Origin: Strigomonas culicis
Taxonomy: Eukaryota; Euglenozoa; Kinetoplastea; Trypanosomatida; Trypanosomatidae
Assembly: GCA_000482145.1 (NCBI GenBank)
Contig: AUXH01000025.1
Coordinates: 1 to 64,000, forward strand
DNA: 64,000 nucleotides
Direction: 5' to 3'
Both the position numbers and the translations under genes were made by a program. The notes under the pieces are model-generated. The model worked only from the letters and a program-made list of their open reading frames with translations, made no database searches and was not told the origin of the DNA. Shown here in pieces: positions 44,653 through 64,000 of the stretch (position 1 is its first letter; every line of letters begins with the position of its first letter).

Positions 44653-45382
44653 GAGGGAAGAGGAGAAAGGAGAGCGCTAACGCTGTGTGATCCGTTGACA
44701 CTCCAACAAATGCACGTACAATAAACAAACAAATGAAAGAGCTCAAGAAGGAAGGTAGAAGAAAAAACAAAACAGTTTCAAGAAGATATTGGATAACATA
44801 GCGCCATAGCACACATTGTGCCACCGATACAGTAGAGCTCTCACACAGGAGGGAGATCAACAATGCACACATGAGCAAAGATCATTATGGAAAAGAAAAA
44901 AGAGGAGAACAGTTGTATGAATTCGGCAGACACATCTGTATAACCTGAAATTATCAAGAAAAAAAAAAGATCTTCACCGCTGGAACAGACACAATACAAG
45001 CGTATAAGCTGTGATGGAATAAAGTGAATACGTATGCACGCAATTAAGGCGTGCCAGAAGAAGAAAAGAAGACATTATAGTTATGATAATACTAGTGATT
45101 CTAGAGAGTAAGAAAGATTGAGTAATACATGCAGAGCAAATAAAGAAACAAATCTTATATACATATAAAGAAAAACACCTTTTTGTTATACTTGTACTCT
45201 TTCAAGCAATAGTGTATAGAAGAGAACCAAAACTGTCAATGAAAAGGAACTAAAATGGATGATGATAACTGATCTTTTTATATATATATATACATACAAA
45301 ACAATATTTTAAAGAGATAGAAAAAAAAACTTCGATCGATTCTATATTTCCTGTAAAAACAAAGTAAAAAAAAAAGAGCGCC
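44653..45382. other. Array spacer with duplicated flank and 3' UTR element
   Basis: The part at 44805-44900 matches the A1 upstream flank and contains ggagatcaacaatgc, also seen in B flanks. The 3' UTR element of B5 is at 45331-45361 (cttcgatcgattctat). No gene is seen. Confidence 0.6.
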
Positions 45383-46348
45383 TTAGCTTTCATACTGCAG
45401 CATCTCCACAGAGAGTGGTGATGGTGTGCACCGCTTATATTTTGCTTCGCGACGTGGTGAAGGGCGCCGGGTACGGCACGGAGTGTGCCTGTTGTATACA
45501 GCAAGCTTGGTGCCACCGGCTACCGCTCGGATACCGGTGGGGCTGGCTGCCGTCAGCGCAGTACCAATGATCGATGCCTCGGCACGACGGAAGGCACCCG
45601 CGCCGTTTTTTTTCTGGGAGATGAACCTCTGGCGCTGGAAGGAGACGGCGCCGTTCTGCAAAAGCTGACGGATCGGCGGGGGCGCCGAGGGGAGACGGTC
45701 GTGCGGCGGGGCCCGCACTTGGGTAGGCCCTGGCGCGGCGGCAGTCAGGTCTGGCGCAGGCCACGCTGCGGTGGTGCCGTCCGTCTGGCTGTGCTCGTGC
45801 ACCTGCTGTGGCGATGGGAGCGGGCTGTCTGCTGTTCCTGGTGCCTCGAGTGGATTCCGCATGCACACATCTTCGCATTGGGTGTCTCTTGCGGAGGGCT
45901 CTGCGGAGTACATGTTCACCTGCCGTGGGCGTATGCAGCTCCACGTCCACTCACGCACGGGCTCCACCGGTGGCATGACGGCTTCCGTTTCGGCTCGGTC
46001 CTTCGCATCGTCGTCCTCTGCCCTGACAGCAGCGGCTCGCACAGGTCTGCCCGCTGCTCTGCCGCAGTCGCTGATCTGATTCGTGTTCGCCAAGTAACCG
46101 GTGTGCCGCCGCATCCACGCCGTGGCGCGCGGACGGGGCGGCTGCCGCGGCCGCATACATCCGCTGCGCTCGCCTGTCCTGCCGTTGCCGGCGGCGGTGG
46201 GGCGGGCGGGGCCGCCGCACGCCGCGGTGCCTGGCCGCGTCGTGCTCGTTCGATACGAGGGCCAGTGGTCCCCCGCCAAAAGCAATGGCGGCAGCGCGGC
46301 TGATGGGATGCGGGGCTGTGACGCACGGGCCCTTGCCGTGGACCTCAT
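45383..46348 (-). CDS. Array family B protein, copy B5
   Basis: A 321-residue protein. The start at 46348 (MRSTARARASQPRIPSAALP) is chosen by family alignment; the frame is open to 46528. The N-terminus has LLLAGDHWPSYRTS, like B4. Other blocks: VMPPVEPV, TWSCIRPRQVN, TTAAWPAPD, VSFQRQRFIS and KYKRCTPSPLSVEML. This is the first B copy in the direction of transcription. No domain is recognised. Confidence 0.75.
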   Translation of the reverse strand: MRSTARARASQPRIPSAALPPLLLAGDHWPSYRTSTTRPGTAACGGPARPTAAGNGRTGERSGCMRPRQPPRPRATAWMRRHTGYLANTNQISDCGRAAGRPVRAAAVRAEDDDAKDRAETEAVMPPVEPVREWTWSCIRPRQVNMYSAEPSARDTQCEDVCMRNPLEAPGTADSPLPSPQQVHEHSQTDGTTAAWPAPDLTAAAPGPTQVRAPPHDRLPSAPPPIRQLLQNGAVSFQRQRFISQKKNGAGAFRRAEASIIGTALTAASPTGIRAVAGGTKLAVYNRHTPCRTRRPSPRREAKYKRCTPSPLSVEMLQYES

Positions 46349-47084
46349 TGCTCTGTTGTCTTCAATATGCTTCCAAAAAGTAGATATTAAAGTAAAAAAA
46401 AAACGTTCAGGAAATACTAGTCTCTTACAGTACGAATAGAGATGAGGAGAAGGAAAAGAAATATGTGAACAGATGTACATAGGAAGGGAAAAAAAAGTTG
46501 TTCCATAAGTGTAGCAAATGGGTACCACTCACCTCAATCCTGAATAACATAGCTACATGACTTTCATGTTGAGGAACGCAGAAAAAAGTGTAAAAGGAAA
46601 GAATAATACCATGAATACTGCAATAATTTGAGTTTTTTTTCTTAAATACATTTATTTTGATACTATACTATATACACGCGCAAGTGTGCGTAAAGAGACA
46701 AATAAAGGTTAAGTGAATTCTCATAGCAACGGCTTCGTGCTTTTGCTTTCCTTTGCTTTTTGCTGTATGCAATACAATACAAAAGAAATGTGAGGCAACA
46801 TTTAAAGAGAAAGAAAAAAAAAGAACAACTGATACACATATGAGTCCAATAGAGCAAATCTAAGAAAAACACTCATATGAAAAATAAAGGAAAATAAAAA
46901 ATCAGATTAATAAAAAGAAGAAAAAAGAAGGAGACACCTGCAACTGAAAAGAAAAGAAGGAGAAGAGAAAACAAATGAAGAGAAAGCATCCTGTCCGGAG
47001 GATCTTTCCTTCCTTTTCTCTATCCGACCGTCTGTCCCACACCACCCGTGCCAGCTCCATGGCCCGCGGCCCGCCTCCCCCTTT
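46349..47084. other. Array spacer
   Basis: Contains the B5 5' flank block (about 46498-46555: ttccataagtgtag ... cactcacc). AT-rich, no gene is seen. Confidence 0.55.
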
Positions 47085-47942
47085 CTACAGCGCGAGAACG
47101 CTGGTGATGTCGATCTCGTCTCCCGCGCCGCTGGACGCGAGCGACCGGCGCGGCACGCTCTGTTTGCGGCGGTTGCTGCAGAAGCCCATGTTCTCCTCCA
47201 TCTGCTGCGCGACGACGCTCCCGCGGTGCAGCTCCGGGCTGGGGGCGACCTCCCGCACCGCGGGGGGCGCGGCGGCCGCCGCGGGGGGCTCCGCGAGGGG
47301 CTGCGTGAGCCGCTGCACCTGACCGGACGGCGTCACGATCCGCGGGGCGGCCGGCGGCGCCGCGTCGCCAGAGCGCTTGTGCGACGGCGGCTTGTTCACC
47401 GGCGTATCGCCCGTCTGCCGGCGTACCTCCGATCGGTTTGGTATGGTATCGCTAGCGTGCTTCTGTAACGGCGGCCGGTCTGGCATGGCATCACTCGCGC
47501 GGTGGTGTGGTTCTGGTTTTTCCGGCGCCGCATCGCGCGTGTGCGCACGCGCCGGCGGCTTGGTGGCTGACGCGTCGCCAGCGTGTCGGTGCGATGGCGG
47601 CTTCTCCGGTGTTGTATTACTAGAGCGTCCGTGCGACGGCGGCTTCTGCGATGCCGTTTCGCTCGCGAGCCCGCGGGACTGCGGCGTGTGCAGCCCCGCC
47701 GGGCCGTCCGTGCCCTCCTCCGTGGCACCGGTCTCGCGGCTGCTGGTGTCATGCAGCGTCCGTCTGCCTCTGCCGAGCAGTGACGTGTCGCCCTCCGCCC
47801 GGTCCTTCTGGAGGGCCTCGCGCATGTGCGTCAGGCTCTCCTTCGCCTCAGTCGTCGTGTTGTGATGTCGGAAGGTATCGTAGAGGGTGGTTTTGGGCGC
47901 GGCCCCGTCCTCCATATCCAGGTCAGACATGCCGGCACCCAT
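47085..47942 (-). CDS. Predicted N-myristoylated protein with seven 14-residue repeats
   Basis: A 285-residue protein starting MGAGMSDLDMEDGAAPK at 47942. Gly2 with Ser6 fits the N-myristoylation consensus. Residues 100-197 are seven exact-length 14-residue repeats beginning [KR]PPSH, [KR]PPxx or a diverged form, and usually containing a Ser/Thr/Gly-Asp pair near the middle (for example KPPSHRHAGDASAT). After the repeats come a Pro/Ala-rich part and a more ordered C-terminus, ENMGFCSNRRKQSVPRRS to DEIDITSVLAL. It stands between the B array and the D array and shares with D only the MGxxxS start, so it may be a distant partner rather than a member. Family not recognised. Confidence 0.78.
   Translation of the reverse strand: MGAGMSDLDMEDGAAPKTTLYDTFRHHNTTTEAKESLTHMREALQKDRAEGDTSLLGRGRRTLHDTSSRETGATEEGTDGPAGLHTPQSRGLASETASQKPPSHGRSSNTTPEKPPSHRHAGDASATKPPARAHTRDAAPEKPEPHHRASDAMPDRPPLQKHASDTIPNRSEVRRQTGDTPVNKPPSHKRSGDAAPPAAPRIVTPSGQVQRLTQPLAEPPAAAAAPPAVREVAPSPELHRGSVVAQQMEENMGFCSNRRKQSVPRRSLASSGAGDEIDITSVLAL
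47352..47645 (-). repeat. Seven 42-bp tandem repeats
   Basis: They encode residues 100-197 of the overlapping gene as seven in-frame 14-residue units. The copies differ from each other, so the expansion is not very recent. Confidence 0.8.
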
Positions 47943-48509: not shown

Positions 48510-49481
48510 TCATGGTGCGGTATATACGTACGGCGGAGGCGGCATCTCTGCGGACACAACCGGCGGCGCGGCATCGGTGTCTGCCCGTGCAGGCAGCCGC
48601 AGCGCCACGGAGTAGTTCGGCGGGGGCAGCGCGCAGTCGGCAGAAGGCCGCATGGCCTCCCCCGGGCACCAGCCGGAGCTGGCGGTTGCCGGCCGCAGCT
48701 GGTTGCTGATGTTGTCACAGATGTCAAAGGAGGTGACGCTGCTCTGCGGGAGCGCCTCCGCGGCCGCGAGCGACACGTACGAGGGCGGCAGCGACAGGTC
48801 GTAGTTGCGCGGGTCGTCCTTGATGGTGAAGCTCCGCGCGATGGCCAGCGCGAGTTCAGCGTCGTCGTCCGCTGCGGGAGCGGCCGCGGCCGGCGCCTCG
48901 CGGGGCGGCTCCTCGAGCAGCTCGGGTGCGTAGGCGGGCGGCGGCAGCGTCGTGCTGGAGGCCAGTGCCGCCGCGGCCTCCCGCCGCTCCGGATCCCGTG
49001 CCGCGCGCACCGGCGGCGCCGCGCGCTTTGTGGAACGGACGGCGTAGTCGTCGAGGTGCTCCAGGAAAATGTGCACGCGGCTGGTGGGGCAGCGCACGAC
49101 GACCGGCTGCGTCTCGCCGCGCGCGATGTAGCGCAGCAGCAGGTCGGGCCCCTCCTCGCCCACAATGAGCACCTGCCGCCCGTTCACCGGGATGACGATG
49201 GGGTTGGCGGCCCACTTACGGGTCGTGGTGGTGGTGCTGCTGCTGCTAGTGGTGTCTTCCGTGGCCGCCTTCTGCTTGTGGCGGAGCTGCAGCGCGTGTG
49301 TGACGTGCCAGAACCGGCCGCGGGGGTGCGGTGACTGCGTGTCGGGGGGCGCCGGTGAGGGCGCCGCGCTAGGCGGGCTGTGTGTGGCGGCCTCGGCGCC
49401 CTCCGGTGCGAGACGGGGGGAGTCGGTGGCGCCCCTCGCCACTGCCTTCGGCGTTTTCGACATTGAAACGGCACCACCCAT
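48510..49481 (-). CDS. D family protein, copy D1
   Basis: A 323-residue protein starting MGGAVSMSKTPK at 49481 (Gly2/Ser6, predicted N-myristoylation). The frame is open to 49664, but the family start is clear. The core, near residues 94-150, reads IPVNGRQVLIVGEEGPDLLL and then RCPTSRVHIFLEHLDDYAV. Four PPxY motifs follow: PPAY, PPSY, PPNY and PPPY. A UIM-like helix, DDDAELALAIARSF, is joined directly to IKDDPRNYDLS. With four PPxY sites this is the richest copy in the array. It is also the most diverged of the long copies and the first transcribed after the repeat protein. Predicted role: membrane-bound adaptor contacting WW domains and ubiquitin. This is inference. Confidence 0.8.
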   Translation of the reverse strand: MGGAVSMSKTPKAVARGATDSPRLAPEGAEAATHSPPSAAPSPAPPDTQSPHPRGRFWHVTHALQLRHKQKAATEDTTSSSSTTTTTRKWAANPIVIPVNGRQVLIVGEEGPDLLLRYIARGETQPVVVRCPTSRVHIFLEHLDDYAVRSTKRAAPPVRAARDPERREAAAALASSTTLPPPAYAPELLEEPPREAPAAAAPAADDDAELALAIARSFTIKDDPRNYDLSLPPSYVSLAAAEALPQSSVTSFDICDNISNQLRPATASSGWCPGEAMRPSADCALPPPNYSVALRLPARADTDAAPPVVSAEMPPPPYVYTAP

Positions 49482-50659
49482 AGCTTCTAGTTGCAAAGAT
49501 GTGTTCTGGGGGGGGGGTACTGTAAAGAGAGAGAAAAACAAAGAGTTGAGAGGGAGAGAGAGAGAGATGAGTAGAACATATGGAGTCATAATACAACCCT
49601 CAGTGGTTATGATACACATAGAGTGAGACCAAACAGCTTCACCCAAACACATACATATGTACATACAGCGATATCATTGATGCAAACACGTAAGACTGCT
49701 ATTTCGAGATTAAGTAAAGGAAAAAAAACCGAATACTGCAAAAAGGAGAGAGAATAGAATAGAAAGTTATTGTTTATATATAAAAAAAGGAATGAAAATA
49801 TATATCGTGGATACTGACACACACAAAAAAAAAACGTTCGAAAGTGAGGACACAGGTCCTTGACTATTGTCAATGAATAGATAGAGCTTGTATAGGGGTT
49901 TAGGTCCTGAAAAGTACGCGTCTCAAATCAATGGAAAATAAAATCAACCTAGCGATGAAATAATAATAATAAAAAAGAATTACGAAGAAAACAATACATT
50001 TCATTCCGCTTGAGTGTTTTTATCATCGGTGCAATACAAGCTATGGAATACAATAACTCAACCAATTATTTATTTTTTCCTTTGTTTGACCGTATCAAGT
50101 TTACCATAAGATATTTTGTTAATCTGTATATCATGCGATGTGCGATAAAGAGGTCCCCTATCCTCCCAAAATCCAAGGATCCCTGTCGTAACAGAGGGCA
50201 GGGATGGGAGAGTTGTATTTTCGGAAGAAAGAAAAAAGGATACTCCTTAAATAAGAGAGGAAGAGGACCAGCGAATGAAAAGCTCTTTATCATGATACCC
50301 ACGTCACGATCGAGAACTAATCTTTCTCTTCTTCATTACACTCCTCGCCTACTTTGTGATTCAAAAACAGCAAAAAAAAATAAGACTCGTCATAAAAATT
50401 AAACGCGTAAAGCAATTGTTACAAATGCATATATAACTAAAGCTTCACTGCTCTAACATTTACCACATAATGAGACTTCTTCATTTCTTTCACATCAAAA
50501 GTGCGGTTTGTACAGTGACGGGCTATGGCCTAACACGCACTGCCCCAGAAAGCTAGGCGGCTTGCTGTATCTCTATTGAGCCGCAGCAAGAGCATGCCGC
50601 CATGAGCAGCAGCGCTTCAAGGAAGAGTACGTTGGGGAGAGGAGCGTGCGCTTCCCCTT
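49482..50659. other. Array spacer with conserved 3' UTR element
   Basis: Holds two blocks shared among D units: a ga-rich and following flank region (49550-49730), and an element at about 49885-49935 (tataggggtttaggtcct ... tacgcgt) that recurs after D3, D4 and D5. Just beyond the D2 stop, 50520-50659 is homologous to the C-terminal codons of D5 and D6. No intact gene is seen. Confidence 0.6.
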
Positions 50660-51574
50660 CTACGCGCGAGTGCTGCAGGTCATCATCCGATTACACACCG
50701 ACTGGTAAAGGGGCGTCGACATCTCTTCGTCAAGCTCCCAGGTCCGGCTAGCGGATGATCGGATCTCCAGTGGCAGCAGGGGATCCACGTGCGGCTCCTC
50801 CCTGCGACGGGAGCTGCTGGGCCGGTCACCGGACGGGATCGACGAAAGGTCGTCGATACGCGGGTCATCCATGATGGAGAGGCTCATCGCAATGCCCAGT
50901 GCGAGGGCTGTGTCGTCATCCATATAGTCCCTCATGGTGACCGTGCGTGCGGTCGGGGGAACTGCGACACGCGCAGGCGCTGCTGTCCGGTGCACCGTCG
51001 AGTACGTGGGCGGGGGCAGTGCAGGGGAGAGCTCGTCGCGCTCAGCCAATGACATTCGGAGAGTCATGGAGTACGTGGGCGGGGCCGGCCCTTCATCGTC
51101 CGACGGGTCCACAGCTGGGGTCGTGTTCTCTCTCAGAGCGGTACGTGGCAGTGAAGAAGTAGCTACCTCCTCGTATTCGTCGATATGCGCGATGAACACG
51201 GCCGTAAACTTCTCTGGACAGTGCACGACCACGGGTTGCGTCGCTCCCCTCGGAACGTACTGAATGAGCACCTGGCTGCCCTCTTGGCCTAGGATGGACA
51301 CCTCGCGCGCGCCGACGGGTGTGGGCGTGGAGCCTTGCGGCGCCGCCTCGGTGGGGGGCGGGGGTCTATCGCTCTGCTGGTCATGCGCCGGGGACGTTCT
51401 GCGAGTCGCTGGTGTTCGAGCCTTCTTTGGTGTCTGGCTCTTTGCTTCCGGTGAGTGATGTCTTGGGGTGGCGGCGGTGCTGACTTGCGGAGGGCGCCAT
51501 ACATGCGATGTGTCACGTAGTGGACCCTCTTCCTTTGCGTTGGACTTTGGTGCCGGTGATACGGCAGCGCCCAT
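50660..51574 (-). CDS. D family protein, copy D2 (C-terminally shortened)
   Basis: A 304-residue protein starting MGAAVSPAPKSN at 51574. Core: VGAREVSILGQEGSQVLIQY to HCPEKFTAVFIAHIDEYE. It has two PPTY motifs. In the UIM-like helix DDDTALALGIAMSL the key Ala is Gly, and it is followed by IMDDPRIDDLSS, a weakened form of DPRNYDLS. It ends NRMMTCSTRA. Compared with D5 and D6 the last 40-50 residues are missing: a TAG follows directly, yet the homologous sequence continues downstream (LSPTYSS, compare SLPSTYIS in D5). So the copy is shortened by a stop mutation and may or may not be functional. Confidence 0.78.
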   Translation of the reverse strand: MGAAVSPAPKSNAKEEGPLRDTSHVWRPPQVSTAATPRHHSPEAKSQTPKKARTPATRRTSPAHDQQSDRPPPPTEAAPQGSTPTPVGAREVSILGQEGSQVLIQYVPRGATQPVVVHCPEKFTAVFIAHIDEYEEVATSSLPRTALRENTTPAVDPSDDEGPAPPTYSMTLRMSLAERDELSPALPPPTYSTVHRTAAPARVAVPPTARTVTMRDYMDDDTALALGIAMSLSIMDDPRIDDLSSIPSGDRPSSSRRREEPHVDPLLPLEIRSSASRTWELDEEMSTPLYQSVCNRMMTCSTRA

Positions 51575-52673
51575 GCTGGGATGAGGGAATGAAAGTAGAG
51601 TTACTATGGCAACGAAAATAAAGAAGGAGAGGTCAATGACATTGGTGTAACACGGATAAGCAAAGACACATCAGCAGTGCAGAGCAGCGTGTAAATCGTT
51701 TCTTTCCTGTAGACAGGAGCCACCATTGCAGAGCCATTGATGAAAAATAAGATACACATCATTAAGAAGCAAATAGCATGGATAGCAGAGATGCACAGAG
51801 GATATCTTATGGATGCAAGAAGTGAAACGAAGACGAAGATCGCGTTGTACGCACGAAAAGATACTTCATTTTGCGTTTTGTAAGAGGCTTCGGAAGCAAA
51901 AATAGTGATCAATTATCGTGCGAAAACAACAACGAAATATGTTTCTATAACTGCATTGTAGAGTGTACAAATAAAAAAAAAGTTAAAAAAGAGAGCAAAT
52001 AGAGAAATGAAAAAGAAAGAGTAGCGAGAGAGGGGGGGGGAGATAGAGGAGAATAACACGTGGAGTGATAATGCAATTCAAATTAGGGATCGCGCACTCA
52101 AAGAGAGAGCAAAGTGATTCACACACAACAAGATGGTTAAGTAAACGAGGAAATAATGCTATTTCGAGATAATGGAAAGAAAAAAAAATGAATACTGTAA
52201 AAGAGAGGGGATAACATCGAATGAAAAAGGTATTGCTAATCAAAGTAGTAGAACGTATCACGCATATGGTATGTTTTGATAGAAATAAAAGGTTGAAAGC
52301 GAGGACATCAATCTCTGGCTTTCGTAAATGAACAGAGAGAGGGTGTATAGAGGCTTAGGTACTGCGAAGAAAACGATTTACATGAATAGAAGAGGAAATG
52401 ATCCTCACGATGAAAAAAAAAAAAAATAATGCAGAAAAAAAAAAGAAGCCTCACTATAAAAGCTAAAGTTATAAACCACTTATTATATACAAACATCGTA
52501 TACGTATATATGCATATATAATAATCAAACTTCACTGTCATATCACGAAAGATCGACCTTTCCCTCGTATCAGAGGCGTGGCACATCCTGCTTTGGGCGA
52601 TGGCCTAACACACACCGCCCTAGGGAGCTAAGCGGATTGCTGCACAGTTGTTGAGGAGAGCAATGGCACGCCG
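51575..52673. other. Array spacer with conserved 3' UTR element
   Basis: The D2 5' flank (about 51673-51735) resembles those of D3-D6. The conserved 3' UTR element is at about 52340-52385 (tatagaggcttaggtac). Block 52590-52673 is a remnant of D3's lost C-terminus. No gene is seen. Confidence 0.6.
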
Positions 52674-53711
52674 TCATGGGCGGCGGTGGCTTGCCGACGA
52701 GTGAGCCGAAGAGAGCGGCGTGCGCCCCCCCTTCCTCGCGGAAGCGCCACCGGCCGTCACCCGATTACAAACGGACTGGAAAAGTGGCGTCGACATCTCT
52801 TCTTCCAAATCGCAGGTCCGTACGGTGGAGGATCCGTCCTCGAGTGGGTCGACGTGCGGCCTGTCCCTGCGGCGAGCGCTGGAGGTCCGGTCGCTGGGCG
52901 GGACGGGCGGGAGCTCGTAGTTGCGCGGGTCGTTCTTGGCGGAGAGGCTCAACGCGATGGCCAGCGCGAGGGGAATATCCTCGTCCCCAAGGTCGGTCGT
53001 CGCGGTGGGGCATGCGGTCGGGGGAACGGCGACTTCGGTTCTGCGCCGAGGGGCTGCGGCTCGGTCCGCCGTCGAGTAGGTGGGTTGAGGCAGCCTCGCG
53101 CACTGCACATGGGACTCAGCCACTGGCATTCGGAGGGCGTCCGAGTACGGCGGCGGGGACGGCTGGGCTGCTCCCTGCAGCGGAGTTACGCCCAGGGTCG
53201 AGGTCGTGTTCTCTCTGACAGCGGTACGCGGCGGTAAGGACAAGGACGCAGTGATTACTTCGTGTTCGTCGATATGCGCGATGAAGATAGACGTGAAACT
53301 CTCTGGACAGCGCACGACCACGGGTTGCGTCGCTCCCCTCGGAACGTACTGAATGAGCACCTGGCTGCCCTCTTGGCCTAGGATGGACACCTCTCGCGCG
53401 CCGACGGGTGTGGGCGTGGAGCCTTGCGGCGCCGCCTCGGTAGGGGGCGGGGGTCTATCGCTCTGCTGATCATGCGCCGGGCACGTCTTGTGTGGCAGTA
53501 TTGTCCCGCGCGTCGCTGGTGCCCGGGCCTTTTTCGGCGTACGAGCGTTGTTCGGTTTCTGGTCGTTTGGTTCCTCCGACTGGCGTCTGGGGATGGTGGT
53601 GGAGGTAACCCGCGGCGGGTGAGAAGCCCGCGCTGCACAACGCGGTGTATCAGGCGGCGCATCCGCTACCTTTTCGTTGGATTTGCGGGCCGGTGATACG
53701 GCAGCGCCCAT
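52674..53711 (-). CDS. D family protein, copy D3 (C-terminally altered)
   Basis: A 345-residue protein starting MGAAVSPARKSN at 53711. The core is nearly identical to those of D2, D4 and D6 (VGAREVSILGQEGSQVLIQY). One PPPY motif is kept; the second site is PQPTY, so the PPxY is lost. The UIM-like helix DEDIPLALAIALSL is perfect in its Leu/Ala/Ser core and is followed by NDPRNYELPP. It ends with a frame unlike the other copies (GGRTPLSSAHSSASHRRP). Past its TGA, the sequence resembling the D5 tail (LLNNC in D3, LPLNNC in D5) continues, so the C-terminus has been changed by frameshift or stop mutation. Confidence 0.78.
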   Translation of the reverse strand: MGAAVSPARKSNEKVADAPPDTPRCAARASHPPRVTSTTIPRRQSEEPNDQKPNNARTPKKARAPATRGTILPHKTCPAHDQQSDRPPPPTEAAPQGSTPTPVGAREVSILGQEGSQVLIQYVPRGATQPVVVRCPESFTSIFIAHIDEHEVITASLSLPPRTAVRENTTSTLGVTPLQGAAQPSPPPYSDALRMPVAESHVQCARLPQPTYSTADRAAAPRRRTEVAVPPTACPTATTDLGDEDIPLALAIALSLSAKNDPRNYELPPVPPSDRTSSARRRDRPHVDPLEDGSSTVRTCDLEEEMSTPLFQSVCNRVTAGGASARKGGRTPLSSAHSSASHRRP

Positions 53712-55031
53712 GCTGGTGCTGGGGGATAAGGAAGAGAGTTCACTAGGATAACGAGAACAAGAAAGAGGGACACATGGAGTACATTAGTATAGCACAGCGA
53801 AGCGCCGACACAAGAGCGGTGTAGAATATAATGCTGGTCCTATGTTTCCGGTAAACGGGAGCCCACACTGCAAAAGTACTGTGTAGTGGAAGTGGTATCA
53901 ACTGGGTTTTGCGATTTGCGATTTACCATAAGAGCAGAAGGTGACTATAGCGCACGAGCACACCAAAAAGAATTATAAACAAAACAAGTTAAATACAAAT
54001 GTGCAAACATCGTTGGTGCTGCACATTCAGTATATAGATGCAGTATATATAGAGAGCATAAACATTGCTTTGAATACACTAGGCAGTTCCTCATTGTGCG
54101 TATTCAAAAGAAAAACACGTGAAATGAAAAAACAGCGATCAATTACATTAATAAGTATATTTTAAAAGTGCATTGTAAGCTATCGAAAGAGGGCAAGAAG
54201 CAAATGTGAGTAAACAAAGAAAAGAAAAAGAAACGGTCAAGAGAGGGAGAGAGGGCGAGAGAGAGAGATAAGAAGAACACGTGTGGTCAGAATACATTTC
54301 CAAGTGGGCAACACGCACACAGAGTGAGGTAAAAGAACTTCATATAAAGATACAGACATCCACATATACAGTGAAACAATTAGCAAAGAAAGGAGCGAAA
54401 GTGCTTCGACATACAACAAAACTGCAAAAGGGAAAGGAAAAAAAAAATGAAAAGGGTACTGTCTATCACAAGAGTCGGAATAGTAATACATAATGTTAAA
54501 CCATAACATAACAACGTTTGACAGTATATATACAAGCCCAGCGCCTTTGGTAATTGCATAAATGGAGAATGTATAGAGGATTAGGTCGTGTAAAGTACGC
54601 GTTTCACATCAACAGAATTAAAGAACACTCTAGCGATCAAATGGTAATAAACAAACAAACGAAAAAAGAAAAACTCATCATCGAAAAGGAAAAAACAAAA
54701 CGAATAAACCACTTATTATAATATACAAGAACTATAATAAATCATCACTGGTCCATCATTTAACAGATAAAAAACGTTCCACACTTCTCTCACAACAGAG
54801 GTGTTATTTGTACAACTCTGTTTTATGGCCTAACATGCACACACCACAGGGACCGTCCGCATACACACAGATTCAGATAGTATCGTGCTCAGGCTCTCTT
54901 TTCAATCGTACGTCACCCTGCCAAGAGAACTACTCTCGAGCAGCAGCAATACGTTCGCTCCCACCTAGTGCTCCCGCCTGACCGCCGCAAGGGTCGGCGG
55001 TGTGCTAACCGAAGAGGATGGACAAGAGGTC
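53712..55031. other. Longest array spacer
   Basis: Contains the D3 5' flank, the conserved 3' UTR element (about 54565-54615: tatagaggattaggtcg ... tacgcgttt) and, at 54827-55031, a degenerate region beginning with the conserved atggcctaaca block that was coding in the ancestor. No intact gene is seen. Confidence 0.6.
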
Positions 55032-55829
55032 TTAACTGCGCGGGTCGTCCTCCATGGCGAGGCTACACGCGATGGCCAGCGCGAGGGCAGCATCATCGTC
55101 CACGAGGTCGGTCCGCGTGACGGTGCGCGCGGTCGGAGCCACAGTGGCCTCCACGCTACGTTCAGGTGCTACTGTGCGGTTCACCATTGAGTACGTGGGC
55201 GGGGCCAGTGCAGGGGAGAGCTCGTCGCTCGCCGGTGCCGACACCCGGAGAGCCACGGAGTACGTGGGCGGGGCCGGCCCTTCATCGTCCGACAGGTCTA
55301 CAGCCGGGGTCGAGGTCGTGTTCTCTCTCAGAGCGTTATGCGGCGGTAAAGAAGTAGTTACCTGTTCGTATTCGTCGATATGCGCGATGAACACGGACGT
55401 AAACTTCTCTGGACAGTGCACGACCACGGGTTGCGTCGCTCCCCTCGGAACGTACTGAATGAGCACCTGGCTGCCCTCTTGGCCTAGGATGGACACCTCT
55501 CGCGCGCCGACGGGTGTGGGCGTGGAGCCTTGCAGCGCCGCCTCGGTGGGGGGCGGGGGTCCATCGCTCTGCTGGTCATGCGCCGGGGACGTCTTGTCTG
55601 TCAGTATTGTCCTGCGCGTCGCTGGTGTCCGGGCCTTTTTCGGCGTACGAACGTTGTTCGGTTTCTGGTCGTTTGGTTCCTCCGATTGGCGTCTGGGGGT
55701 GGCGGTGGAGTCAACCTGCGGCGGGCGCGAATGACGTGCTGCACGGCGCGGTGTATCAGGCGGCGTAGCAGGCGGCACGTCCTCTGCTTTTGCGTCGGAC
55801 TTGCGCGCTGGGGATACGACAGCACCCAT
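55032..55829 (-). CDS. D family protein, copy D4 (truncated at the DPRNYD motif)
   Basis: A 265-residue protein starting MGAVVSPARKSD at 55829. The core is intact and nearly identical to those of D2, D3 and D6. It has two PPTY motifs. The UIM-like helix DDDAALALAIACSL is intact, but the protein stops right after MEDDPRS: where other copies read DPRNYD, the Tyr codon is TAA. The whole tail present in D5 and D6 is absent. It may still work as an anchored PPxY/UIM protein, or be on the way to a pseudogene. Confidence 0.78.
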   Translation of the reverse strand: MGAVVSPARKSDAKAEDVPPATPPDTPRRAARHSRPPQVDSTATPRRQSEEPNDQKPNNVRTPKKARTPATRRTILTDKTSPAHDQQSDGPPPPTEAALQGSTPTPVGAREVSILGQEGSQVLIQYVPRGATQPVVVHCPEKFTSVFIAHIDEYEQVTTSLPPHNALRENTTSTPAVDLSDDEGPAPPTYSVALRVSAPASDELSPALAPPTYSMVNRTVAPERSVEATVAPTARTVTRTDLVDDDAALALAIACSLAMEDDPRS

Positions 55830-56816
55830 GCTGGTGCTGGGGACTAAGAGGAGAAGATACTATGGTCACAAAAAAAGAAGAAGAAAGAAGCACAAGTAGA
55901 AGACATTGGTGTATAGCGCAGGGAAGGGCATACAGAACCACACTCTAGAGTGGCGTGTAGGTCTCATCTTTTCAGGTTACGAGAGCCCACACTGCAGAAG
56001 TACGCATGATGCAGTAACAATACAGACTTGAGAGGTAAATAGCAGGTGCAGCAGAGATCCATAAACATCGCCTTGTGGATATCGTAAGTGAGTGGACAAG
56101 AAAGACCACTTTGTAAAACGAATCAACGCTTCATATTGAGTAACATATTCGAAACAGAGTGATGCATAGCAGAGCATAATTACCTTATGAATAATGAACC
56201 AATGGTATTTATATAAATGCACCAGAAGCTCTGCAAAAAACGAATAAAGGTGAGGAAATAGAGAGAAGGAAAGAAGGTGTCAAGAGAGGGAGAGAAAAAA
56301 ATATGACAAGAAAACAAATAATCGCAAAAACAAAGTTCCAGATACGCACCGAGGCCAGTCAGGAAGAAGAAAGGAAACATTAGTTCCACGTTTTATTTTT
56401 TAAAGCGTACTATTAAATGAAGGGAAACCCACATCGAATGGAAAAGATAGTGCTAGCTAAAAAAAGTGAAAACATTGATATATAGTGTAATGTCAGAGAA
56501 AAGGAAAAATACTCGAAAAAAAATGCACAAGTTCATGACTTTTGTAAAGGGAAGAATACTGCATATATAGAGTTTTAGGTTGTGCAAATAACACGTTTTA
56601 TATAGCCCTTATAAAAAAAAAGCGTCACAAGAAAACAATGATAATAAAAAAAAGAAACAAAAAAAAGTCATCATGAAGGCAATACATACAAAGACATATA
56701 TGTCTTTGTTTGATACATAAACGTGGTATATCTTATAAACATGTTACTCTTCCTTTGCGTACAACATCAAAGGTCTACCTTTCCCTCACATCGCCCATGC
56801 TGCTGTGGACTATGGC
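55830..56816. other. Array spacer with palindrome and 3' UTR element
   Basis: Holds the D4 5' flank, a conserved element at about 56560-56605 (tatagagttttaggttgtg ... acgtttta) and a perfect 22-bp palindrome at 56688-56709. No gene is seen. Confidence 0.6.
56688..56709. repeat. Perfect 22-bp palindrome
   Basis: The half-site acaaagacata is followed directly by its reverse complement. It lies in the 3' UTR region of D5, 108 nt past the stop. It could form a hairpin in the transcript. Confidence 0.7.
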
Positions 56817-57854
56817 CTAGCGCGCACTACCACAGGGAACCACGTGGCAGTCCATGCAATTGTTGAGCGGCAGGAAGGGCACGGCGTCGTGGGCGATGGT
56901 CGCTTCCATCGTGCGGTGGGCGGAGATGTAGGTCGAAGGCAGCGAAGTGCCCCCCTCTTCCGTCTCGGGAGTGGCACACGTCGTCACCGCTCGATCGTAC
57001 ACTGACGGGAGGGCCGTCGGTGGCACCTCCTCCCCTACCTCCGACGTCCGTGTAGTAGATAAACTGTTCTCTATCGGTTGCAGTGGGTCCATGTGCGGCT
57101 CCTCTCTGCGGCGGGGGAGGGCGGTCCGGTCATCGGAGAGGTCGTAGTGGCGCGGGTCGTCCTTGATGGGCAGGCTGCGCGCGATGGCGGTGTGCTCGTC
57201 CACGAGGCTGGTCGTCGTGACGGTCGGTGCGGTCGGGGGAACGGTGGCCTCTGCTGCACGCTCCGGTGTGACTAGTCTGTCCCCTGTGGAGGGGCTGGAC
57301 GGGGGCAGCGCCGGGCATGGCGCGTGGCGCTCAGAGACTGGCATGACGAGGGCCTCAACGTACGAGGGTGGGGGCAGCTCGGCTTCCCCCACTGACACGT
57401 CTTCGGCGGAGATATGCTCTCCGTGCAGAACGGTCAGTGCCGCGATGGCGGTGCTGCCGGAGTCGTAGTCGTCGATGTGTGCGAGAAAGACGGACGTGAG
57501 GTGCGTCGGACACGATACCAGCACCGGCTTGGTCTTGCCCAGCGGGATGTACTGAATCAGCACGTGGCTGCCCTTTCGACCGACGAGCGACACATCGCGC
57601 CCGTTGACCGGTATCGCGATGGGCTCCTGCGGCCGCACCTCTGGGCGCGGCGGTGTTGGGTCGCTCAGCGGCATGTACACCGGTGAGGTCGGGCGAGTCG
57701 GTGGCTGCTGCTCGAACATTAGTGAACGGTCGTTTGTGGCCTGTGACACACGCCTTGGGGTGGCGGTGGTGCAGCTCTGCGGGGGGCGCGCATCGCGCCG
57801 CGCACACCCTCTCTTTGCGTTGGACATGCGCGCCGGGGACACGGCAGCGCCCAT
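56817..57854 (-). CDS. D family protein, copy D5 (diverged core)
   Basis: A 345-residue protein starting MGAAVSPARMSN at 57854; the TTG at 57875 is not used. The core differs from its neighbours and is closer to D1: IPVNGRDVSLVGRKGSHVLI, then SCPTHLTSVFLAHIDDYD. There is one PPSY motif (PPPSYVEALV). The UIM-like helix is eroded to DEHTAIARSL, but IKDDPRHYDLSDD remains. The C-terminal tail is full length (SLPSTYISAHRTMEATIAHD, ending VVPCGSAR). It lies between D4 and D6, whose cores are almost identical to each other, so it escaped homogenisation. Confidence 0.8.
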   Translation of the reverse strand: MGAAVSPARMSNAKRGCARRDARPPQSCTTATPRRVSQATNDRSLMFEQQPPTRPTSPVYMPLSDPTPPRPEVRPQEPIAIPVNGRDVSLVGRKGSHVLIQYIPLGKTKPVLVSCPTHLTSVFLAHIDDYDSGSTAIAALTVLHGEHISAEDVSVGEAELPPPSYVEALVMPVSERHAPCPALPPSSPSTGDRLVTPERAAEATVPPTAPTVTTTSLVDEHTAIARSLPIKDDPRHYDLSDDRTALPRRREEPHMDPLQPIENSLSTTRTSEVGEEVPPTALPSVYDRAVTTCATPETEEGGTSLPSTYISAHRTMEATIAHDAVPFLPLNNCMDCHVVPCGSAR

Positions 57855-58545
57855 GGTGAGGTTGGGGATATCCAAGAGAAGTTACTAGGACAACGAGAAG
57901 AAGAAAGAGGGAGAGGTAGAGGAAATCTATGCATCACAGAGAAGTGCAGACACAAGAGCAGTGTAGAGGAGCGTGCAGGCCTTATCCTTCCGGTAGACGG
58001 AGTTCAGCACTGCAACAGCAGAATGTGATGACAGTGGCATTACTTCGACTTTTTTCTTGAATTATCATAACTGCAAAAATTGAAAAAAATTGAAGAAGAG
58101 AGAAAAAACAAGTAAAAACATACATATACTCAGTATACATGCACACACATATTTTCCTTCATTTTTTGTGAATACAAAAAAGAAACAGAGATCGCTTTGC
58201 ACACGCGAGGTCCTCCTTGATTTAGCTTAGTAAAGAGAGAAAAAAAAAGCTTGGAAGCGGAAACGGAGATAAAATATCTTAAGAAAGGACGAATCAGTAA
58301 GAGTTCCACACATACGTTGTCGGCTATCCAAATAGAAAATAAAGGAAAAAAAAGTAAAAAGAGAAAAAAAAATACATACATATGTATATATTAAAAGCTA
58401 AATCTCAGCATAAAAACAAAGAGCACAAAACATGTGTTGTATATAGAAGATACTAAAACTTCACTGTTCTGTTGTCTAACACATCATGAAAGATCTACAA
58501 TGTCTCATGACAGAGGTGCAGTCCCACGAAGTGGTGCGCAACGGC
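57855..58545. other. Array spacer
   Basis: D5 5' flank (conserved block near 57958-58020), then AT-rich sequence. No gene is seen. Confidence 0.55.
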
Positions 58546-59646
58546 CTAGTACATACTGCCGCAGGGAATTATTCGGTGTGCGGTGGAGTAGGAGGGCGGC
58601 AAGAACGATCCATCGTCTTGGGCGGCGGTGGCTTCCATCACGCGGTCGGCCGAAATATAGGTCGAAGGGGCTGAGGTGCACCCGCCCTCCGTCGCAGTAG
58701 TGCCACAGGTCTTCACCGTCCGATTGCACACCGACTGGAAGCGCGGCGGCAGCACGTCCCCTAGAGAGGAGGTCAACACGTTGGAACAATTGCTCTCGAG
58801 CGACGGCAGTGATGTCATCTGCGGCTCCTCCTCACGGCGGGGAATGGCGGTGTGATCACCGGAGAGGATGGGTGAGAGGTCGTAGTTGCGCGGGTCATCC
58901 TTGATGGCGAGGCTCATCGCAATGGCCAGCGCGAGGGCAATGTCCTCGTCCACCACGTTGCTACTCGTGATGGTGTGTGCGGTCGGGGGAACTACGACAC
59001 GCGCAGGCGCTACTGTTCGGTTCACCATTGAGTATGTGGGCGGGGCCAGTGCAGGGGAGAGCTCGTCGCTCGCCGGTGCCGACACCCGGAGAGCCACGGA
59101 GTACGTGGGCGGGGCCGACCCTTCATCGTCCGACGGGTCTACAGCCGGGATCGAGGTCGTGTTCTCTCTCAGAGCGTTATGCGGCGGTAAAGAAGTAGCT
59201 ACAAGTTCATATTCATCGATATGCGCGATGAACACGGACGTAAACTTCTCTGGACAGTGCACGACCACGGGTTGCGTCGCTCCCCTCGGAACGTACTGAA
59301 TGAGCACCTGACTGCCCTCTTGGCCTAGGATGGACACCTCGCGCGCGCCGACGAGTGTGGGCGTGGAGCCTTGCGGCGTCGCCTCGGTGGGGGGTGGGGG
59401 TCTATCGCTCTGCTGGGCATGCACCGGGGACGTTCTGCGAGCCGCTGGTGTTATGCGCGTCGCTGGGGGCCGTGTCTTTTTCGGTGTCCGGGCTTTCCTG
59501 GGTACCAGGTCAGTTGGTTCCTCCGATTGGCGTCTGGGGGTGGCGGTGGTGCTGACTTGCGGAGGGCACGAGACACGCCGGGCCTCATGCGGTGCATCTT
59601 CTTCCTTAGCGTTCGACTTGCGCGCCGGGGATACGACAGCGCCCAT
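58546..59646 (-). CDS. D family protein, copy D6 (full length)
   Basis: A 366-residue protein starting MGAVVSPARKSN at 59646. This is the most complete copy. It has MGxxxS, a Ser/Pro/Arg-rich linker, the core near residues 97-150 (VGAREVSILGQEGSQVLIQY to FIAHIDEYE), two PPTY motifs, and the UIM-like helix DEDIALALAIAMSL joined to IKDDPRNYDLSPILSGD. The long tail has SAPSTYISADRVMEAT and a third PPxY (LPPSYSTAHR), ending PCGSMY. It is a good reference for judging what the other copies have lost. Confidence 0.82.
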   Translation of the reverse strand: MGAVVSPARKSNAKEEDAPHEARRVSCPPQVSTTATPRRQSEEPTDLVPRKARTPKKTRPPATRITPAARRTSPVHAQQSDRPPPPTEATPQGSTPTLVGAREVSILGQEGSQVLIQYVPRGATQPVVVHCPEKFTSVFIAHIDEYELVATSLPPHNALRENTTSIPAVDPSDDEGSAPPTYSVALRVSAPASDELSPALAPPTYSMVNRTVAPARVVVPPTAHTITSSNVVDEDIALALAIAMSLAIKDDPRNYDLSPILSGDHTAIPRREEEPQMTSLPSLESNCSNVLTSSLGDVLPPRFQSVCNRTVKTCGTTATEGGCTSAPSTYISADRVMEATAAQDDGSFLPPSYSTAHRIIPCGSMY

Positions 59647-60917
59647 GCTGGGATGGGGACTAAGAAAAAGAAGTTACTGAGGCAAAGTGAAGAAGAAAGA
59701 GAAAACAGTGATATTTGTGTAGCAGAACTGTAGAGTATAGTGTGAGTCCGATCCTTCCGGGAAACCATCACCAGCGCTCTATAAAACATTGATGTAGTAA
59801 GACCACATAATTACATGTAAAAGAAAAAGGAAAGCAGAGATGCACAAACAGCATCTTGTGGAATGCAATGTGCGAATGTGAAACGAACATCGCATTCTAC
59901 ACGCGAAAAAGGCCTTCATTTTGTAGTTGAAAGACCAATAAGACAAAATGAACAAGGTACGTAGTAGGGTGATGAACGAAGAAAAAAAGGGAAGACTCAG
60001 CCAATCTGATGAATTGCTTTCACCTTCAGTGGTCCAGTTGGTATGGATAGAACTACGCGTACGACTCCTTGTCGGCGGTGCTCCATCGAGCTGCTACGAG
60101 CGCCGCGCAACGTTTAGCCTGAATTCATTCTGCCTGATGTTTCACTGCCTCGTAACTATCCGTGGCGATGGGTGTTTCATAATCCGCCAGAGCAGCGCCG
60201 CACCGACGTACGACACGCCCCAGTGGCGCACTGCGAAGGTCCCGGCAAGGTGGTGTGGCACAGCAAGCGGTGCGGCGGCGGCGCGCCCATCGACCGACTG
60301 TGCGCTGGCGTGGCGGTCCGTGAGGAAGCGACGAAAGGAGGGTGAGTGCACGGTTGTTAAAACCGCTATAGTAGTAAGAGGAGATCAATGCTTCAATAGG
60401 TGGAGGTGCGGCAAAGAGAAGGAAGAAAAGATGGATGTAGGCGACGATGGGCATATCAGAGTGCTTTGTCATATTTACGACCGCACACATGCGCAGCGAG
60501 CGCGTCATCATAAGTTATAGAGGTTAAAGAGAGAAAAAACAACAGGGATTTAAAAAGAGATATGTATATATATGGAGAGAGAGACAGAGATCAAGTGTTA
60601 AAAATACAGTATAGGAAAGAAAAAGCAAACCCAGCTAAGGGAGGACAGAGTGCAGAGGAGTTTGATCTATCAAAGTGAACTGCAAAGAGAGAGAGGAACA
60701 AAATGAAGACCTTACGACTCACACTACAAAAAAAAAATTGGATGCAAAGTGTGAAAAGTTAACACCGAATTGAAATTAGGAATGTCGTTGTTGTACTTTT
60801 GGGCTGTGTAAGATGTACATGATTGAAAGAAGGTGAAGAAGAAAACAAAGCGTCGTGAAGACAACGCTGCATGTCAAATTCACAAGAAACATTTACGTGC
60901 AAACGAAAAAATGCAAA
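59647..60917. other. Array spacer with GC-rich island
   Basis: AT-rich at both ends, but 60040-60345 is GC-rich like coding DNA. Open frames exist on both strands there; none has a family match and a sound start, so it may be a decayed gene. The short-subfamily 3' UTR element is at 60853-60905 (aaagcgtcgtgaagac). No gene is called. Confidence 0.5.
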
Positions 60918-61769
60918 CTACATCCCCCTGAACTCAACAGGATAGCGAGGTGTCGGCAGAAAGAAATGGTTCGCCGCACTAGGCAGCGGTGCCTCCGCCC
61001 AGAGATCCTGCGGGTCCTGCGCGTCCGGCGGTGGAGCGGCCACATCCCAGTGCGTCTCCCCCGGCGCCTCCCCGGCGGTGCCGTGCGCGTGGTCCACGTC
61101 CCCCGCCGCCGGCGCCGGGTCCGCCCCAGTGGTCGCGCTGGCCGGGACGGCGGAGCCCTCTGACTCCGGCGCCGTCGGGCTCAGGGGTGCGCGCACCGGC
61201 CGCAGCGGCGACTCAGGCGAGAGGTCGTAGTTGCGCGGGTCGTCCTTGATGGGCAGGCTGCGCGCCGCGGCCGTGGGTGAGTCGGCAGTAGACCGGACCA
61301 CGTCGGCGTACGACGGCGGCGGCGCCGCGGCGCGGCTCGGCTCTGTAAAGGCGTAGCGGTCCATGTGCTGCAGGAAGAACGCGACGCTCTCCGTGGGGCA
61401 GTGCACGACGACGGACTTGGTGCCGCCCAGCGGCACGAACCGCAGCAGCACCTCCCCGTTGTGCGGGCCGTACCTCTGCACGGTGCGGCCGTGGACGGGC
61501 ACGAGCGTCGGGGCGCCGTAGCAGCTGGGGATCGCGCCGCCGGCCGCCGCGAGTGAAGGGCTGGCCGCGCGCTGGTCGGCTGCGCTCGCGCCACGCGGCG
61601 GGTTGCTGCTGGCCCGCGTCTTGGCGCTGCCGGCGGCCTCCCGCTTCGCCAGCTTGCGGTGGGCGCTGGTGGTGGCGTGTGGGTGACCGGCGGGGCTGTG
61701 AGACGTGCCCGGGGCATAGCGCTTCCTCTGTTCTTTCGTCACCACGGGCACAGAAGAGCTGCAGCCCAT
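60918..61769 (-). CDS. D family protein, short subfamily, copy D7
   Basis: A 283-residue protein starting MGCSSSVPVVTKEQ at 61769. Gly2 and Ser6 predict myristoylation, and Cys3 allows palmitoylation. The core reads VPVHGRTVQRYGPHNGEVLL, then HCPTESVAFFLQHMDRYAF. It has one PPSY (APPPSYADVV). The acidic UIM-like helix is reduced to TAAARSL, but IKDDPRNYDLSPES is perfect. It ends LPTPRYPVEFRGM, a C-terminus shared with D8 and D9. It is the only intact complete member of this subfamily in the window. Confidence 0.82.
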   Translation of the reverse strand: MGCSSSVPVVTKEQRKRYAPGTSHSPAGHPHATTSAHRKLAKREAAGSAKTRASSNPPRGASAADQRAASPSLAAAGGAIPSCYGAPTLVPVHGRTVQRYGPHNGEVLLRFVPLGGTKSVVVHCPTESVAFFLQHMDRYAFTEPSRAAAPPPSYADVVRSTADSPTAAARSLPIKDDPRNYDLSPESPLRPVRAPLSPTAPESEGSAVPASATTGADPAPAAGDVDHAHGTAGEAPGETHWDVAAPPPDAQDPQDLWAEAPLPSAANHFFLPTPRYPVEFRGM

Positions 61770-62349
61770 TGTATGGCTTTTGGTGGATGTTGTGTATACT
61801 AAAGTGGAGTGCGTGTAGTTAAAAAAAAGAGCGATGAAAATAAATTTCTACATTTGTATATTTACGGGTGCATTCAGTAATGAATGTTATGTCAAAGTGA
61901 AGGAGATAAAGATGGATAGAGAGCAAACAGAAGTACATAAAGGTTTCACCCAACACTGAGAACGCACGAGAATTAGGAAACGACGCCAAACATTAAGGAA
62001 AGAAAGGTAACAACAAAAAAAGGTGATGCGTATGTTAGTTAAATTCTTTAAAAAAAAAAGCAAAGTGAGCTGAAAAAAAAAACTAGCTAAGCGAAAGTAG
62101 AACACAGAGGACTTCAACTTATCCAACTGTACCGCAATGTGAAGACATTCGAACAAGCATTAAAGAAGATGGTGAAAAAAAAAATGTAAATGTTAACAGA
62201 GAACTAGAATCATGAGAGTTTTTGTTAATGCACACGACTGCAGGAAGAAAGTAAAGCGTCGTTATGACGATACCACATTTCGAATTCACTCACTAAAAAA
62301 GGTTAAGAAAAAGAAACACAAATAACAAAACCCACAGTGGACGAGTAGG
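61770..62349. other. Array spacer
   Basis: AT-rich. Near 62258-62305 lies the same 3' UTR element (aaagcgtcgttatgac ... aattcac) as after D7 and D9. No gene is seen. Confidence 0.55.
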
Positions 62350-62961
62350 CTACAGTGCTCGGATCATGGTGGGATAACGGGGCGCCGGCAGGGCGACAGT
62401 AATCCCTGCGCCAGGCAGCGGCGGCCGCACAGTCCCAGTGGGCCCGACGACCCCTATCTGTGGCCCCGTCGCATTGAGTGGTACGCGCTGCGGCAAAAAA
62501 GGCGTGTCGGGAGAGAAGTCGTAGTTGCGCGGGTCCTCTATGATCGCGAGGCTCAGTTCCCCCGTCGTGGCCAGGTCGGCGTCCGCGGCAGCAGAGAAGG
62601 AGTACGACCGCGAGAGCGCAGCGGCGCTGCCCTCCTCGCCGAAGGCATAGCGGTCCATGTTCTTGAGGAAGAGGGGGACGGTGTCCGGCGGGCAGTGCAC
62701 GACGATCGGCAGTGTCGCGCGCAGCGGCACAAACCGCAGAAGCACCTCCCCGTTGTGCGGGCCGTACACCTCCACGCTGCGGCCGTTGACGGTCATGATG
62801 GTCGGCACGCCGTAGCTCTCCGGGACGTCGGCCCCTGCGGCCGCAGGCGGCGGGTTGCGTCGTGTCTGATTATTGGTCACTACCGGTCGGGATGGGGTGC
62901 GGGAACGTGCCTATTGCCCTTGCTCTTTGCACCTTTGTGAGGAAGATTGACTGCAACCCAT
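62350..62961 (-). pseudogene. D family, short subfamily, copy D8 with nonsense codon
   Basis: An ATG at 62961 opens with MGCSQSSSQRCKEQGQ, a clear D7-type acylation signal. Codon 17, at 62911-62913, is TAG. The same frame then runs on to the family core (TVNGRSVEVYGPHNGEVLL, HCPPDTVPLFLKNMDRYAF), IIEDPRNYDFSPDT and the end LPAPRYPTMIRAL at 62350. No PPxY remains. An internal ATG at 62796 could give about 148 residues that include the core but lack the membrane signal. Otherwise a pseudogene by a single stop. Confidence 0.75.
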
Positions 62962-63554
62962 CGTGAAGCCGTTTCAAAAAAAAAAAAGACTGCAAATATT
63001 AAAAGCAATAATTGCACTAATATGTATATGCGGATGCTTGCAGTAGTAATAATTACGTCAAAATGAAGAAAAAAAAAGGATGGAGGGCAGAAGAAGCACA
63101 CAAAGATGTAACAGAACACTAGAACTAAAGGAATACAAAGAGAGCAAGCCAGTGTGAAATATACAGATTGCGGAGAATCAATAAAAACGATTGTATACAT
63201 GCATAAAGTTCAACCGTGAAAAAAAAAATGGGATGAAAAAAAAAAAGAAAGAAACCAGAATAGAGAGGAGTTGAACCCATCTAACTGTACTGCAATGAAA
63301 AAAGAAAGAACATGAAGACGTTCCTACAATCACGAAGGAAAACGGGGTAAAGAAGATGTAAAAAATACTACAGAATATTGAAAGCATTAGAGCCCTTGTT
63401 GTACACGTATGTTGTGTATGCTGCACATGATTCAAAGAAGGAAGTATAAAATAAAGCGTCGCGATGCAGACGCAGCGTTTCTAATTCACAAAAAGAACAT
63501 ACACGTAAAAGAAAAAAGGAACACAAATAACCGAATCCAGAGTGGACGGGTATA
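62962..63554. other. Array spacer
   Basis: AT-rich. The short-subfamily 3' UTR element is at about 63451-63510 (aaagcgtcgcgatgc ... aattcac). No gene is seen. Confidence 0.55.
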
Positions 63555-64000
63555 CTACAGCGCTCGTATCACGGTGGGATAACGAGGCGCCGGCAGGGCG
63601 ACATTATTCACCGCGCCAAGCAGCGGCCGCGCAGTCGCAGTGGTCCCGTTCGTGGAGATGACGATGCCTATCTGCGGCCCCGTCGCGTTGAGTGGTACGC
63701 ACTGCGGCACAAGAGATGTGTCGGGAGAGAAGTCGTAGTTGCGCGGGTCCTCTATGATCGCGAGGCTCAGCTCCCCCGTCGTAGGCAGGTCAGCCTTGGG
63801 AGTGGCGGGGGAGCGGGCCTGTGAGACTACGGTGACGTTGTCCTGCTGTGTAAAGGCATAGCGGTCCATGTTCTTGAGGAAAGGTCCGACGCATTCCGGG
63901 GAGCAATGCACGACGATCGGCACTCTCGTGTCCCGTGGCACAAACCGCAGGAGCACCTCTCCGCTGCAGGGGCCGTACACCTCCACGCTGCGGCCGTTGA
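63555..64000 (-). CDS. D family protein, short subfamily, copy D9 (partial, runs off the window)
   Basis: The 3' part of a gene whose start lies beyond position 64000. It begins within NGRSVEVYGPCSGEVLLRFV, continues HCSPECVGPFLKNMDRYAF and IIEDPRNYDFSPDT, and ends LPAPRYPTVIRAL at 63555. It is very close to D8 from the core to the stop, including the bases just after the stop codon. It shows the array goes on to the right. Whether its N-terminus carries MGCxxS cannot be seen. Confidence 0.75.
   Translation of the reverse strand, partial: NGRSVEVYGPCSGEVLLRFVPRDTRVPIVVHCSPECVGPFLKNMDRYAFTQQDNVTVVSQARSPATPKADLPTTGELSLAIIEDPRNYDFSPDTSLVPQCVPLNATGPQIGIVISTNGTTATARPLLGAVNNVALPAPRYPTVIRAL

Follow-up and report, generated by a model that had tools for sequence, protein, structure and literature searches.

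A tandem array of predicted membrane-anchored PPxY proteins in Strigomonas culicis

Layout and relatives of the array

The first 64,000 nucleotides of contig AUXH01000025.1 (C25) of the Strigomonas culicis assembly GCA_000482145.1, which we refer to as the window, end in a tandem array of nine paralogous genes (D1–D9), all on the minus strand (Table 1). The family members have low-complexity tails and the genes evolve fast. An earlier interpretation made without database searches (the sequence-only reading) had described these nine same-strand paralogs as a lineage-expanded set of lipid-anchored adaptors that bring ubiquitin machinery to membranes. The nine genes were recovered as described, and following the array beyond the window edge raised the family to at least 11 members. 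The full frame of D9 spans 199 residues (C25:63555–64154), and D10 (C25:64705–65361) is still open where the contig ends (65,362 bases). Contig C663 overlaps this end (500 of 503 bases identical) and carries D11; the overlap contains three single-base gaps, which locally shift the D10 frame between the two copies. For D1, the family start corresponds to an internal ATG at 49481 rather than to the first ATG of the 384-residue open reading frame (ORF).

The family splits into a long clade (D1–D6 with the outside sequence P0001) and a short clade (D7–D11), with support of 100/99 for the split. A search with D6 returned a single match, P0001, among 4952 candidates. A family profile gave four matches among 7998 scored candidates; since P0002–P0004 were marked as proteins of the window itself, P0001 stands as the single outside relative. 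No family member was found among the Phytomonas EM1 and Hart1 proteins, which were present in the database searched, but this negative is weak because the search relies on shared 5-residue words. No description of the family turned up in the titles and opening lines of abstracts of the papers listed by literature searches. The proposed expansion in this lineage is supported as a local expansion.

Truncation of D4 inside its DPRNYD motif and the stop after codon 16 of D8 are signs of decay within the array. Synonymous change between D2 and D4 is 0.050 in the core vs 0.561 in the N-terminal part and 0.341 in the tail, and the low core value may therefore reflect gene conversion. The starts of D1–D7 are preceded by a pyrimidine-rich 20-mer (18–20 pyrimidines) followed by AG; these tracts add little because 204 of 500 control stretches from the same region also reach 18 or more. 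A search with a 22-base spliced-leader pattern gave no match.

Table 1. Positions and content of the array genes and of the D6 motifs within the window.
Feature	Position	Strand	Length and content
D1	48510..49481	-	323 aa; MGGAVS, core 49026-49217, 4 PPxY, UIM-like helix, DDPRNYDLS
D2	50660..51574	-	304 aa; MGAAVS, core 51155-51346, 2 PPxY, UIM-like helix, DPRIDDLS
D3	52674..53711	-	345 aa; MGAAVS, core 53244-53435, 1 PPxY, UIM-like helix, DPRNYELP
D4	55032..55829	-	265 aa; MGAVVS, core 55350-55541, 2 PPxY, UIM-like helix, frame stops at DPRS
D5	56817..57854	-	345 aa; MGAAVS, core 57447-57638, 1 PPxY, no UIM match, DPRHYDLS
D6	58546..59646	-	366 aa; MGAVVS, core, 3 PPxY, UIM-like helix, DDPRNYDLS
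D6 core	59197..59358	-	residues 97-150; coordinates derived from frame
D6 PPxY 1 (PPTY)	59101..59112	-	residues 179-182; coordinates derived from frame
D6 PPxY 2 (PPTY)	59032..59043	-	residues 202-205; coordinates derived from frame
D6 PPxY 3 (PPSY)	58588..58599	-	residues 350-353; coordinates derived from frame
D6 UIM-like helix (VDEDIALALAIAMSLA)	58906..58953	-	residues 232-247; coordinates derived from frame
D6 DPRNYDLS motif	58873..58896	-	residues 251-258; coordinates derived from frame
D7 (short clade)	60918..61769	-	283 aa; MGCSSS, core 61335-61526, 1 PPxY, no UIM match, DDPRNYDLS
D8 (short clade)	62350..62961	-	starts with MGCSQS at 62961; stop follows codon 16, frame open beyond it
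D8 open frame past stop	within 62350..62961	-	core 62629-62820, DPRNYDFS, no PPxY
D9 (short clade)	63555..64000	-	cut by window edge; MGGSHS, no PPxY, DPRNYDFS

N-terminus, core and tail motifs

All 11 N-termini (D1–D11) carry the MGxxxS start that the sequence-only reading had reported, with Gly2 and Ser6 constant and positions 3–5 variable. Because of these N-termini the proteins are predicted to be N-myristoylated, and myristate on Gly2 would tether them to a membrane. Cys3 is present in D7, D8 and D10, where palmitate might be added to the myristate. High-confidence N-myristoylated proteins are reported to make up only 62 of 8,233 (0.75%) in Leishmania major (PMC1885993), which makes a run of MGxxxS genes notable without thereby proving the modification.

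Eight columns of the ~50-residue core are invariant across the nine window cores, that of D9 being partial. Comparison with Pfam gave nothing above cut-off in D1–D9. A Phage_cap_E match to the D3 core (E 0.11, 12 bits vs a cut-off of 22.9) was not accepted because it is absent from the other eight copies. Sequence searches of the PDB returned no credible match to the family (best E 0.017, to a recA chain over 12 residues; best E 1.3 in a second search). On these comparisons the core is undescribed. Myristoylation is paired with PPxY late motifs in viral Gag; a viral (Gag-like) origin was considered and set aside, with the search limited to the Pfam scan.

PPxY motifs number 4, 2, 1, 2, 1, 3, 1, 0, 0, 2 and 3 in D1–D11, respectively, and six in P0001. 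Across 2000 shuffles of these 12 sequences (D8 being read downstream of its stop and D10 taken from C25), the count averaged 1.67 and never exceeded 8, so that the observed total of 25 is a 15-fold excess. Column tests in the long clade used sites picked by their presence in D6 and comprised the six P/P/Y columns that were filled in at least five rows. Mean pairwise identity in these columns was 0.86, vs 0.42 in 214 background disordered columns (permutation p 5e-5) and 0.53 in 30 other P/Y columns (p 0.0004). P0001 matches D6 at nine of nine PPxY positions, compared with 11 of the 18 remaining P/Y positions and 82 of the 190 positions of the whole tail, and an extended context such as PPTYSxxxR recurs in D2, D4, D6 and P0001. 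In total the motifs exceed chance, and conservation of the PPxY columns in D1–D6 and P0001 exceeds the background level, whereas conservation no better than neutral would have counted against the sequence-only reading.

These results bear on an account in which the array products are hydrophilic, acylated and fast-evolving, in the style of HASPs, and their PPxY and UIM resemblances are by-products of Pro/Ala-rich tails. We consider this unlikely. It would fit the rapid evolution of the tail (D6 residues 151–231), where the ratio of nonsynonymous to synonymous change (dN/dS) is 0.50–0.87 in ten pairs of D2–D6 (0.41–0.64 for whole genes), as well as the lack of PPxY in D8 and D9 and the MGxxxS start and short repeats, seen by eye, of the neighbouring gene at 47085–47942. 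However, by-products of composition would not lead us to expect the 15-fold excess over shuffles, the higher conservation of PPxY columns than of other P/Y columns, or the recurring PPTYSxxxR context. The Leishmania HASPs are likewise acylated hydrophilic trypanosomatid proteins (PMC1885993, PMC6872171), but the D genes contain no above-threshold tandem repeat and the likeness is one of style, not of sequence comparison. HASP orthologues are reported to be missing from H. muscarum (PMC1885993, PMC6872171).

The ubiquitin-interacting motif (UIM) was searched for as a consensus in the form of a regular expression (acidic stretch, hydrophobic residue, xx, A, xxx, S), which 1–5% of shuffles match by chance, per sequence. 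The pattern is present in D1–D4, D6 and P0001 and not in D5 or D7–D11, that is, in five of the nine window copies. Among these nine, the Pfam UIM family (PF02809) was listed only for D6 (E 0.52, 10.7 bits, below the cut-off of 21), and it was not listed for P0001 at E up to 1. Identity in the UIM stretch of D1–D6 and P0001 is 0.65 vs 0.42 in the background (p 1e-4). The UIM-like helix ascribed to the long copies is found as a pattern in five of the six long copies of the window, the exception being D5, but falls below the Pfam cut-off. The DPRNYD[L/F]S motif had been called invariant; it is conserved, with DPR in all nine window copies, but its exact form occurs in five (D1 and D6–D9) and D2–D5 carry variants (Table 1). 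Beyond the window, D10 reads DLRNYDFS and D11 DPRNYDLS.

WW and HECT proteins encoded in the genome

The assembly searched for potential partners comprises 17.7 Mb in 670 contigs; no contig below 10,215 bases was seen, and shorter ones are therefore probably absent from it. Ten WW matches were found on seven contigs by the genome-wide search, which missed a further, weak WW domain in a Myo1-like protein. A class I WW signature, defined as a sequence pattern, is present in six of the 12 WW strings compared, distributed over three proteins on C235 (four), C23 and C96. The genome therefore does encode WW-domain proteins, including ones with class I signatures; their absence would have spoken against an adaptor role. 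The C235 product is a tandem-WW protein with four class I WW domains, and its relatives include proteins of Phytomonas EM1 and Hart1 (three class I WW domains each) and P0005 (four). The WW domains on C235 are of a NEDD4-like type: outside Phytomonas, a NEDD4-like protein (3.7e-18) was the single named match. A NYN/PIN nuclease reading of the C235 N-terminus, proposed purely on visual inspection, gained no support.

HECT matches numbered 15 on 14 contigs, none of which coincides with the seven WW contigs. Upstream sequence was scanned at eight loci over 500 residues and at four more over 567–633 residues (C236 was seen twice). In the frames on 12 of the 14 contigs, no WW or C2 domain was found within these ~500–630 residues; the partial matches on C493 and C76 and the far ends of the frames lay outside the scan. 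One HECT locus (C555, frame 1–2319) encodes protein kinase and HECT domains in a single open frame.

Arrestin-related and Ndfip-type proteins are PPxY adaptors of Rsp5/Nedd4, and the array products resemble them in their PPxY tails and predicted membrane association; they differ in that D1–D9 have no Pfam match above cut-off and no WW-HECT partner was found. By analogy, the array could encode adaptors through which ubiquitin machinery, together with a HECT ligase of the Nedd4 type, is recruited to membranes, as the sequence-only reading had proposed. LAPTM5, a membrane protein that combines a UIM with several PY motifs (PMC3214061), would offer a precedent for this arrangement. However, transmembrane regions are predicted in LAPTM5 and its partner is Nedd4, whereas the predicted anchor of the array proteins is a lipid at the N-terminus and the searches gave no Nedd4-type ligase. 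The NEDD4-like character of the C235 WW domains and a Nedd4-like motif reported upstream of the ZFP2/3 WW domain (PMC2873481) would also suit such a role. Against it stand the 14 HECT contigs without any WW match and the scanned frames without WW or C2 domains, with the limit that the genome-wide search overlooked the weak Myo1 WW domain, as well as the predicted size of 147–733 kDa reported for the L. mexicana HECT ligases (PMC7647121). We regard this role as quite improbable: no Nedd4-type C2-WW-HECT ligase was detected in this probably incomplete assembly, and a Nedd4-type partner is not well founded in the genome as searched.

The C23 and C96 products are WW-CCCH proteins of an RNA-binding type that resemble trypanosome ZFP2/ZFP3, and the latter contains an RGG-rich stretch, identified by eye, like ZFP3. 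WW-dependent binding of ZFP1 to ZFP2/ZFP3 has been reported in T. brucei and T. cruzi (PMC3070815), and ZFP1 thus provides a case of a proline-rich ligand for trypanosomatid WW proteins; it is itself a CCCH protein, whereas D1–D9 have no listed CCCH match and carry MGxxxS. The PPxY tails might accordingly hold ZFP2/ZFP3-like proteins at the membrane, compete with ZFP1 and tune translation or differentiation. The two class I WW-CCCH proteins, the RGG-rich stretch and the published interaction are consistent with such mRNA-regulator tethers, but single WW domains do not require up to four or six PPxY motifs, the UIM is left unexplained and the resemblance to ZFP2/3 is one of domain content. This possibility therefore appears doubtful to us.

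The Myo1-like protein on C328 combines a myosin head with weak WW and FYVE matches. TbMyo1 is reported to contain a WW domain and to be required by bloodstream forms for endocytosis (PMC2924389), and both observations would be in line with endocytic adaptors that join ubiquitylated cargo to a WW- and FYVE-bearing class I myosin. The WW domain on C328, however, reaches only 15.8 bits, where the cut-off is 26.9; it is interrupted by a long inserted loop and the class I His is absent. The FYVE match is likewise below its cut-off. We consider this explanation very improbable. As to Phytomonas EM1 and Hart1, one passage of a further paper (PMC5778035) gives no Myo1 orthologue, though another passage of that paper counts Myo1 hits for Phytomonas.

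A putative scaffold and the genes next to it

We tentatively favour, with a confidence somewhat short of even, a reading of the array as lineage-restricted, predicted N-myristoylated, membrane-anchored multivalent PPxY scaffolds for kinetoplastid WW proteins, with ubiquitin binding as a possible extra of the long copies. The tail motifs, up to four per copy, would dock class I WW domains multivalently, and this PPxY–WW recruitment is a well-founded prediction. The WW partners would be the class I WW proteins of the genome, the C235 tandem-WW protein first and the ZFP2/ZFP3-like WW-CCCH proteins second, a part that no Nedd4-type ligase was found to fill. The multivalent scaffold is favoured because a tandem class I WW array best fits multivalent tails. 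In five of the six long copies, ubiquitin could in addition be bound by the UIM-like helix, and the scaffold may therefore place the WW complex beside ubiquitylated membrane cargo. Of the original adaptor interpretation, the local expansion, MGxxxS starts, conserved PPxY motifs and WW proteins hold, whereas the Nedd4-type link is not supported and the UIM is confined to five of nine copies at sub-threshold scores.

Several observations weigh against the scaffold. N-myristoyltransferase was matched neither by two Pfam families nor by a motif pattern, although the family results do not prove absence and short contigs seem to be missing. Just one outside relative of the family was found. Taken singly, D3, D5 and D7 (one PPxY each) lie within chance (0.07, 0.11 and 0.13, respectively), and D8 and D9 have no PPxY at all. 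The UIM is under the Pfam cut-off and absent from six of the 12 sequences; dN/dS gives no clear sign of stronger constraint on the UIM–DPR stretch (0.22–0.73, with one pair, D3 with D4, at 2.88 over ~17 synonymous sites), and the short-clade core has a dN/dS of ~0.69–0.80 (D7, D9 and D11). Finally, C235 is a candidate partner by valency and signature, not by interaction.

If the scaffold reading is correct, recruitment of WW proteins to membranes through PPxY motifs would operate independently of Nedd4-type ligases in this group, for which the present searches gave none. It would also name concrete partner genes and suggest a role for the tandem-WW protein that Phytomonas shares. A broader proposal, possible but less than likely in our view, is that some trypanosomatids maintain a PPxY–WW membrane network without a Nedd4-type ligase, in which lipid-anchored, ubiquitin-reading tandem scaffolds would have as their partner a kinetoplastid tandem-WW protein, NEDD4-like in its WW domains and devoid of HECT.

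The surroundings of the array contain further local genes and families. Adjoining it in the window is the MGAGMS gene (47085–47942, minus strand), in which ~7 units of the KPPSHKRSGDAAP type, each of ~14 residues, were counted by eye; it is HASPB-like only in style. On C663, a 167-residue MGSMPS protein is encoded beside D11 (2717–3217, minus strand), with one PPSY, no visible core and no Pfam match. A second tandem family of five ORFs (37237, 38969, 40681, 42452 and 45383) occupies 37237–46480 of the minus strand of the window; by eye, these share N-terminal RASQ and C-terminal KYK..-P-PLSV stretches, and Pfam matched none of them at E up to 0.1. Another local family lies on C663 (4170–9098, minus strand), where ORFs 4170 and 5978 share a VSNYKSLFDSRR stretch and ORF 8115 has an apparently diverged form of this stretch.

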